Of a DNA stretch of 35,614 bases, positions 22,631-24,714 are shown piece after piece. How positions within the stretch are numbered: position 1 is the first letter of the stretch; every line of letters starts with the position of its first letter. The stretch comes from an uncultured Pelagibacteraceae bacterium (GTDB taxonomy: Bacteria; Pseudomonadota; Alphaproteobacteria; Pelagibacterales; Pelagibacteraceae): positions 1-35,614 of the forward strand of contig CACGAV010000010.1 in NCBI GenBank assembly GCA_902571095.1, written 5' to 3'. The position numbers were made by a program, and so were the translations under genes. Below the pieces are notes generated by a model, which was not told the origin of the DNA, made no database searches, and saw nothing but the letters and a program-made list of their open reading frames with translations.

Positions 22631-22722
22631 TGGAGGCCATTCAGGCGGTTTTAATGCGTTTAATGTGTCAGGGTGTAACAACAGCAGCACGAACTTTTGA
22701 AAGCGGGTTGTTTGGTCTCCTA
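22631..22722 (+). ncRNA. ffs: Signal recognition particle RNA (4.5S-like)
   Basis: The 157-base gap before dnaX holds a small structured RNA. GGAGGCCA (22632-22639) pairs with TGGTCTCC (22713-22720) as an eight-pair closing stem with one G-U. At the other end GTGTCAGG (22665-22672) faces AGCAGCAC (22683-22690), which reproduces the SRP helix 8 core (GUCAGG opposite AGCAG) that binds Ffh. The apical loop between them (GTGTAACAAC) is not the usual GGAA type. A good promoter precedes it, and ffs next to dnaX is a known gene order. It ends about ten bases before the dnaX start. Exact ends are approximate. Confidence 0.82.
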
Positions 22723-22730
22723 ACACTGGT

Positions 22731-24401
22731 ATGAACACAAAAAATAATACAAAAATATTAGCTTTAAAATATAGACCTAGAGTTTTTAAGGATCTGATTG
22801 GTCAAGAAATAATTGCCGAAACTATTTCCAATGCAATAAAAATTGGAAAAACTCCAAATGCCTATCTATTAACGGGGATACGAGGTGTTGGAAAAACAAC
22901 AACAGCTAGACTAATTGCAAAGGCAATGAATTGCACTAAAAATTTTGAAAAAGGAGAAATCTGCGGTGAAAAAGAAACTTGCCATTGCAAAGAAATTGAA
23001 AATTCAAATCATATTGATGTTCTAGAGATGGATGCAGCATCTAAAACTGGAATAGACGATATAAGAGAGCTAATAGAAAATGCGAAGTATAATCCTACGA
23101 GTGCAAAATTTAAAATATTTATAATTGATGAAATCCACATGTTGTCCAAACAGGCATTTAATGGACTGCTCAAAACTTTAGAGGAGCCACCAGAGAAGCT
23201 AAAATTTATTTTAGCAACAACTGAAGTTAGAAAAATTCCTGTAACTATTTTATCAAGATGTCAAAGATTTGATTTAAAAAGAGTTCCTCTTGAAGAAATT
23301 TTTAAACATATTAAAAAAATTTCAGAAATAGAAAATGGCAAAATTTCAGAATCAGCATTAAAATTATTAGCAAAGGCTTCCGAAGGATCTGTTAGGGATG
23401 CTTTATCTTTATTAGATAGAGCTATCATTTACCAAAATTTAAATAACGAAAAAACTTTAGAAAGCTCAGATGTAAGAAAAATGCTTGGCATTGCTGACAA
23501 ATCAAAACTCGTAGATTTGATTAATAATATTTTTTCTGGAGAACAAAAAAAATCACTCGATATTTTACGAGAACTTATCGAAAGCGGTCTAGACGCTAAA
23601 AATTTTCTTAATGATTTTCTAGAGCTCATTTATGTTTATGGAAGAAGAATAAGTCTTGGCAAAATTGAAAATGATTTGTTTATTTCCGACTCAGAATTGA
23701 ATTTAATTGAAAAAGGATCAAAAGACTTAAATATGCAAGACATTAGCCTTTTTTGGCAATTAACATTAAAGACAATTGAGGATATCAAGGTTGTTCCAAA
23801 TGATAATTTAGCACTTGAAATGTTCGTACTTCAACTTATCTATATGAAAAATATTGGCTCAGATCAACAGGATCTAATTTCCAGCAAAGAAAAAACATTT
23901 GACATTTCCGATGTAAAAAAAAAAATTGAAAATCAAAAAAATGACCTGAAGCCAATCAATTTTACTAAAAGCCAAATTAAAAATACAGAGCAGATTAAAA
24001 CCTTAACCAAACAAGAATCTGAAATCCAAAATAAAACTCAGATAAGGTCTTTTGCTGATCTCATAAATTTAACAGAAAAACTGAAAGAAATGGAGCTCAA
24101 GTATGACCTTGAGAGAAATGTTAAGTTAGCAAAATTTGAACATGGAAAAATTGAAATAAATTTTAATGAAAATATAAATAAAAATTTCATTAAAACACTC
24201 TCAAATTTTTTATTTAATTCAACTGGGAAGAGATGGATTATTAGTTTAACCAAAAATGAAACAAACAAAACTTTTCACCAACAAAAAGTAGAAGACAAAG
24301 AGAAAGCGCTAAACTTTGAAAAAAATTCACAAACATTTAAGGATTTTATAAATGCTTTCCCTGACGCAGAATTAATTAATGTGAGTGAGGAAAATGAATA
24401 A
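22731..24401 (+). CDS. dnaX: DNA polymerase III subunit tau (and possibly gamma)
   Basis: This is the clamp-loader ATPase of the replicase. The 556 residues show Walker A GIRGVGKTT (49-57), a zinc module with C68, C78, C84 and C86, the DEIH Walker B (133-136) and sensor 1 ATTEVRKIP. A charged linker runs from about 385 to 455, before a C-terminal domain resembling the polymerase-binding region. In the linker, 11 adenines (23915-23925) lie at codons 395-399, and a one-base backward slip gives Asn then TGA, which would make a 399-residue gamma-like form. dnaX-ybaB-recR is a classic cluster. Confidence 0.95.
   Translation: MNTKNNTKILALKYRPRVFKDLIGQEIIAETISNAIKIGKTPNAYLLTGIRGVGKTTTARLIAKAMNCTKNFEKGEICGEKETCHCKEIENSNHIDVLEMDAASKTGIDDIRELIENAKYNPTSAKFKIFIIDEIHMLSKQAFNGLLKTLEEPPEKLKFILATTEVRKIPVTILSRCQRFDLKRVPLEEIFKHIKKISEIENGKISESALKLLAKASEGSVRDALSLLDRAIIYQNLNNEKTLESSDVRKMLGIADKSKLVDLINNIFSGEQKKSLDILRELIESGLDAKNFLNDFLELIYVYGRRISLGKIENDLFISDSELNLIEKGSKDLNMQDISLFWQLTLKTIEDIKVVPNDNLALEMFVLQLIYMKNIGSDQQDLISSKEKTFDISDVKKKIENQKNDLKPINFTKSQIKNTEQIKTLTKQESEIQNKTQIRSFADLINLTEKLKEMELKYDLERNVKLAKFEHGKIEINFNENINKNFIKTLSNFLFNSTGKRWIISLTKNETNKTFHQQKVEDKEKALNFEKNSQTFKDFINAFPDAELINVSEENE
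23915..23925 (+). other. A11 slippery run in dnaX
   Basis: Eleven consecutive A residues span codons for VKKKI. A -1 ribosomal slip or an extra A in the transcript gives AAT TGA (399-residue product). A missing A gives a stop after 405 residues. Both leave the ATPase and collar domains and drop the tau-specific tail. Confidence 0.6.
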
Positions 24402-24714
24402 TTTTTCAGATATGCTTTCCCAGGCTAAAAAAATGCAAGAAAAAATGAGAGAAGTTCAAGAAAATTTAAAAAATATTGAAGTAGAGGGAATCGCTGGAGG
24501 AAATTTGGTAAGGGTTGTTTTAAAGGGCAACCATGAAATGAAATCGATTTATGTAGACGCAAAAGCAAAAAAAGAAAAAGACGAAATAATTAATGATTTA
24601 ATAATAGCCGCATATAATGACGCAAGAGATAAGTTAAAAAAAAAAACGTCAGAAGAGGTTGCGAAGGCAACCGGAATTCCAAACTTACCTTTTGATTTAA
24701 AAATGCCTTTCTAA
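24394..24714 (+). CDS. ybaB: YbaB/EbfC family nucleoid-associated protein
   Basis: This small DNA-binding protein of 106 residues has an N-terminal coiled coil (MLSQAKKMQEKMREVQENL) and the conserved ATGIPNLPFDLKMPF-like C-terminus. The ATG at 24394 is preferred because it gives the usual short N-terminus and has GAGG just before; a GTG at 24385 adds three residues. It overlaps dnaX by eight bases and shares one base with the recR start (TAATG). Confidence 0.92.
   Translation: MNNFSDMLSQAKKMQEKMREVQENLKNIEVEGIAGGNLVRVVLKGNHEMKSIYVDAKAKKEKDEIINDLIIAAYNDARDKLKKKTSEEVAKATGIPNLPFDLKMPF

Follow-up and report, generated by a model that had tools for sequence, protein, structure and literature searches.

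A long adenine run between the clamp-loader and tau-specific domains of dnaX as a candidate slippage site in part of one Pelagibacteraceae genus

Does the dnaX gene of an uncultured Pelagibacteraceae bacterium encode, besides the full-length tau subunit of DNA polymerase III, a shorter gamma-like product that arises by slippage on a run of adenines? An earlier note on the stretch of DNA analysed here (the window, 35,614 nucleotides of contig CACGAV010000010.1) had proposed this for a run of eleven adenines followed by TTGA. The run is present as described (Table 1): it begins with the last base of codon 395 (GTA) and ends with the first of codon 399 (ATT), TTGA comes next and codon 400 is GAA. 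Reading of the frames likewise confirmed that a -1 slip or the addition of one A leads to AAT TGA and a protein of 399 residues with Asn as the last, and that 405 residues result if one A is lost. The placement of the run just past the clamp-loader domains holds too, as judged by the Pfam domains of the protein (DNA_pol3_delta2, DNA_pol3_gamma3 and DUF3646). Since the run lies between domain III and DUF3646, in both shifted products domains I-III would be followed by some 20-30 residues of linker. Immediately 5' of dnaX, at 22632-22723, there is a likely 4.5S SRP RNA (below-threshold Rfam match to RF00169, 22.8 bits, E 0.009); a 4.5S SRP RNA at the same position in Pelagibacter ubique is reported in PMC2704228.

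Table 1. dnaX and the elements of its proposed slippage site (positions in the window)
Feature	Position	Strand	Basis
dnaX, DNA polymerase III subunit tau/gamma, 556 aa	22731..24401	+	TIGR02397 dnaX_nterm E 2e-120; PRK09111 566 bits
Clamp-loader domains I-III, residues 1-377	22731..23861	+	PF13177, PF22608 and PF12169 matches, end at residue 377
Variable linker with the A run, residues 378-438	23862..24044	+	high column entropy, 19 lineages of the genus
A11, codons 395-399 (GTA AAA AAA AAA ATT), proposed slippage site	23915..23925	+	kept as A10-A11 in 8 lineages
TGA in the -1 frame, end of the 399-residue product	23927..23929	+	1 codon after the run
TGA in the +1 frame (codon 406), end of the 405-residue product	23947..23949	+	7 codons after the run
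tau-specific C-terminal domain DUF3646 (PF12362), residues 439-551	24045..24383	+	E 1.4e-24; missing from the slippage products

The mechanism that we consider is slippage of RNA polymerase on the A11 template, which would generate dnaX mRNAs with changed numbers of A's. Messages with 11 or 11+3n A's would be translated into full-length tau of 556 amino acids, with one additional lysine for each extra triplet, those with one A too many would end at the AAT TGA, and those with one too few would end at the stop in the other frame. Both short proteins would contain domains I-III without DUF3646 and would be gamma-like, comparable to the short subunit of Thermus thermophilus. We infer that such slippage would occur at a useful rate, that it would be transcriptional and that the short protein would be used by the cell. 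Two features of Thermus-type dnaX genes are found in the window: an uninterrupted in-frame A run of at least 9 between the gamma and the tau-only regions, and nearby stops in both non-zero frames, which are however also frequent by chance.

How much weight can the adjacent -1 stop bear, which the earlier note had put forward as a clue? The stop is there, but in four genomes a -1 stop occurs within one codon after 41 of the 160 runs of at least 10 A's (26%) and within three codons after 70 of them. The adjacent stop in dnaX is thus near background and we dismissed it as the main evidence; the weight of the case lies in the retention of a run that is otherwise avoided. The source genome has a G+C content of 29%, and because AAA makes up 87% of its Lys codons (435.6 kb), A runs of 8-9 are common in it. 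Longer ones are a different matter. When synonymous codons were shuffled within the coding sequence to obtain an expectation, coding runs of at least 11 A's numbered 10 in the source genome as compared to 32.6 expected, and 13, 9 and 10 in three related genomes as compared to 56.8, 29.1 and 28.0, which sums to 42 observed against 147 expected for the four genomes of the genus. This 3- to 4-fold depletion suggests that runs of this length do slip and that the effect is mostly detrimental, and the avoidance of runs of at least 10 A's is the effect that would be expected of active slippage, be it transcriptional or replicational. The source genome writes KKK as AAA AAA AAA in 71 of 149 cases (48%), so that KKK outside dnaX is often interrupted. 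The caution voiced in the earlier note, that an A12 in aroA speaks for long runs not being rare, is correct as to the run itself, which occupies 1230-1241 on the minus strand in an aroA-like ORF; it is broken in every relative compared. Similarly, an A11 in ybaB just 3' of dnaX (24636-24646) is broken by AAG in the genomes G030 and G009 and by AGA in G029.

The fate of all other long coding A runs, followed by reciprocal best hits among the source genome, G029, G030 and G009, served as control. Other runs of at least 11 A's were still at least 10 A's long in 3 of 43 ortholog comparisons and other runs of at least 10 in 18 of 167, whereas the dnaX A11 was kept in 12 of 12. As G029, G030 and G009 were chosen with their dnaX A11 already known, the fair figure is that for the whole genus, in which at least 10 A's are present at the dnaX site in 8 of 17 other lineages, near-identical genomes having been merged by hand (Fisher p = 0.0009 against 3/43 and 0.0006 against 18/167, values that are optimistic in that the long-run lineages share ancestry and are not fully independent). 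Where the three lysines are conserved, at least 10 A's are kept in 7 of the 8 dnaX lineages with KKK[I/F] and in 13 of 39 controls (p = 0.007, optimistic for the same reason). Chance does not easily explain the dnaX A11, because runs of at least 11 A's are depleted throughout the genome and rarely kept elsewhere, yet are kept here.

Across the relatives the picture is nevertheless uneven. A DnaX match was obtained in 59 of 61 relatives, two of the 59 being weak hits to a related gene only. Among 397 family genomes 346 had a match, and 94 family genes were read in detail. The site carries A11 in the source genome and in six further lineages (L011, L017, L022, L023, L031, L032), A10 in L018 and L033, A9 in L027-L030, A8 in L019 and L021 and, likewise within the genus, A14 in L036. 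Wherever an in-frame run of at least 8 occupies the site, a -1 TGA follows within three codons (11 of 11 lineages). Moreover, codons 390-399 hold 10 of the 26 runs of at least 10 A's in the 94 family dnaX genes, with at most 4 in any other ten-codon bin. No long A run was seen at the site in the sister clade L010/L012-L016, in L024, L025, L026 and L163, and the run is also missing from most other genera examined. In a tree of domains I-III the lineages are deep, run carriers stand on either side of the genus, and the fork that holds the source lineage and, next to it, the L010 clade without the run is not resolved. Conservation among SAR11 relatives, which the earlier note expected of a functional run, is therefore partial: eight lineages have at least 10 A's, well above the control runs, and several close lineages lack the run. 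The note had regarded interruption by a synonymous AAG in close relatives as telling against slippage; this occurs in L020 (A_AAA_AAG, -1 TGA two codons on), while 7 of the 8 KKK[I/F] lineages are uninterrupted. Given that close lineages do without the run, a short form made by slippage cannot be essential throughout the genus.

But is it the nucleotides that are kept, or do they merely follow from the peptide or from base composition? Within the variable linker, K396-E400 form a conserved island among the 19 lineages of the genus, with K397 in 18 of 19, and one might suppose that selection acts on a KK(K)[I/F][D/E] peptide, such as a short binding or degradation motif, with run and -1 stop resulting from the codons. 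The related genus g4 lends some substance to this idea. Its DnaX has LIGKKID at the same site, mostly written GGA AAA AAA ATT GAT (A8), and synonymous variants (GGT, ATC, ATA) disrupt run or stop while the GKKID motif stays, which indicates amino-acid selection in g4. The GKKID peptide, preceded mostly by L and I or V, is conserved in the g4 linker and is carried by L034, L066-L069, L071, L102, L108, L112, L115-L121, L123-L125, L129 and L131. In the window's genus, however, synonymous choices preserve the run more often than at KKK elsewhere (the 7 of 8 against 13 of 39 given above): the T, S or V codon preceding KKK has A as its last base in all 7 lineages (background 45%), and Ile ahead of the acidic residue is always ATT (background 70%). 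As far as codon choice can tell, this speaks with moderate strength for the run itself being under selection in the window's genus, and peptide selection seems to us a rather improbable explanation there. Somewhat better placed, though still unlikely in our estimate, is the view that the run is an unselected by-product of a lysine-rich, fast-evolving linker in an AT-rich genome and that any slippage products are noise. The high share of AAA among Lys codons, the 41 coding runs of at least 10 A's in 435 kb, the frequency of nearby -1 stops and the many relatives without the run would all agree with it. It does not fit the depletion of equally long runs in the same genomes and their retention in 3 of 43 cases, those in ybaB and aroA of the window included, as opposed to 8 of 17 for dnaX.

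If a short DnaX is made, it could also come about without slippage of RNA polymerase. The parallel drawn in the earlier note suggested programmed -1 frameshifting by the ribosome, of the E. coli dnaX type, here at A_AAA_AAA. One tRNA-Lys gene with anticodon TTT and none with CTT was found in the genome (80% complete), a situation like that in E. coli that makes some ribosomal slipping possible, and L020 has the A_AAA_AAG heptamer with its -1 TGA. At the site, L020 alone has that heptamer; in the window there are only A's and then ATT, and in E. coli A_AAA_AAA shifts less readily than A_AAA_AAG (PMC5009743). Nor are the stimulators of the E. coli system found. The 40 nt upstream of the window run contain no Shine-Dalgarno-like site, with weak candidates among the relatives in L019 and L027 only, and no significant stem-loop lies downstream of it (MFE -0.1 kcal/mol, z +1.6) or in most relatives. 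A hairpin ACAT..ATGT just 5' of the window run was discarded, as it is no better than in shuffled sequences and is not common to relatives. The lack of both elements makes Thermus-type transcriptional slippage the better fit, and we regard E. coli-type frameshifting as very improbable and its parallel as not upheld. Alternatively, a short DnaX might stem from partial proteolysis of tau by ClpXP as in Caulobacter, independently of the run. This has alphaproteobacterial precedent (PMC5422525, PMC5009743) and would apply equally to relatives without a run, but it leaves the retention of the run unexplained, and we would grant it hardly any likelihood.

Other members of the order have dnaX genes of unusual form. 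With an A14 (L036:2678-2691), the dnaX of the genome G016 has a zero frame of 401 residues, and its tau part reads on intact in another frame up to the contig end. This may be a two-ORF dnaX like the genes of PMC3711429 or a homopolymer assembly error near the contig end; other A or T runs of at least 12 that lie in aligned coding sequence of G016 were all in frame in a partial check. An A9 in an alphaproteobacterial metagenome-assembled genome (L169) was set aside as a candidate frame-broken case, its contig ending 30 bases past the start of the A9 codon. The DnaX of a sister family in the same order (f2, L041-L064) is naturally gamma-like, with only 415-429 residues in frame; it retains the extreme C-terminal motif IIDFFPGTEVE without DUF3646, and DUF3646 was not found anywhere in the nine f2 genomes searched. 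It is tempting, though we hold it to be improbable, to see within this order of ocean bacteria with minimal genomes a short DnaX obtained by switchable means: by single-ORF A11 slippage in the window lineage, by two ORFs with gamma as default and tau by slippage in G016, with no site in the sister clade, and permanently short without the tau C-terminal domain in f2.

Taken together, position, retention of the run, avoidance of runs of at least 10 A's and the analogy to Thermus favour the earlier proposal of a slippage-made gamma, whereas the loss of the run in a close clade and the commonness of nearby stops detract from it. We estimate a probability of about 0.5 that transcriptional slippage at the A11 gives rise to a gamma-like DnaX, a trait that would be confined to part of one genus, with several lineages lacking it. 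On the genomic comparisons presented it is thus plausible for a subset of lineages, rather than a trait fixed across SAR11 dnaX. If true, it would mean programmed slippage of a replication gene in SAR11, where such A runs are otherwise avoided. Related genomes that carry or lack the run would then also form a natural series in which to test whether gamma matters; even in E. coli the need for gamma has been disputed (PMC5009743). Among publications on SAR11 and dnaX screened by title and abstract, and in the text of PMC2704228, we found no report of SAR11 dnaX recoding, and no literature joining Pelagibacter with slippage and homopolymers.

How does the window gene compare with known systems? 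Caulobacter DnaX is processed by ClpXP (PMC5422525), the ClpX-dependent fragments being gamma1 and gamma2. In Blochmannia, which shares with our source genome AT-richness and a poly-A in dnaX, a poly-A frameshift lies in the tau region and transcriptional slippage has been proposed (PMC3017870); there, however, the frame break falls inside the part unique to tau, and it is tau that slippage would recover. The two-ORF dnaX genes with A7-A10 runs of a GeneTack cluster (PMC3711429) also have poly-A at the gamma/tau junction, but in the window the entire tau ORF is in frame. With E. coli dnaX the window gene has in common a -1 shift ending at TGA after one extra residue and the single tRNA-Lys (TTT) found; it differs in having no Shine-Dalgarno-like stimulator or stem-loop and in its homopolymer A11 in place of the AAG heptamer. 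Closest is Thermus thermophilus, in which RNA polymerase slips on an A9 and each of the other two frames has a stop (PMC1088944, PMC5009743). Both genes encode tau in one ORF with an uninterrupted in-frame A run and early stops in both other frames, and the predicted short form of the window DnaX retains the clamp-loader domains as well. Different from Thermus, the window has A11 instead of A9, its run lies near 71% of the gene rather than at seven-eighths (PMC1088944), it is lineage-restricted, and slippage and gamma are predicted here from sequence. The window dnaX is probably a further, lineage-restricted case of the already known dnaX slippage.
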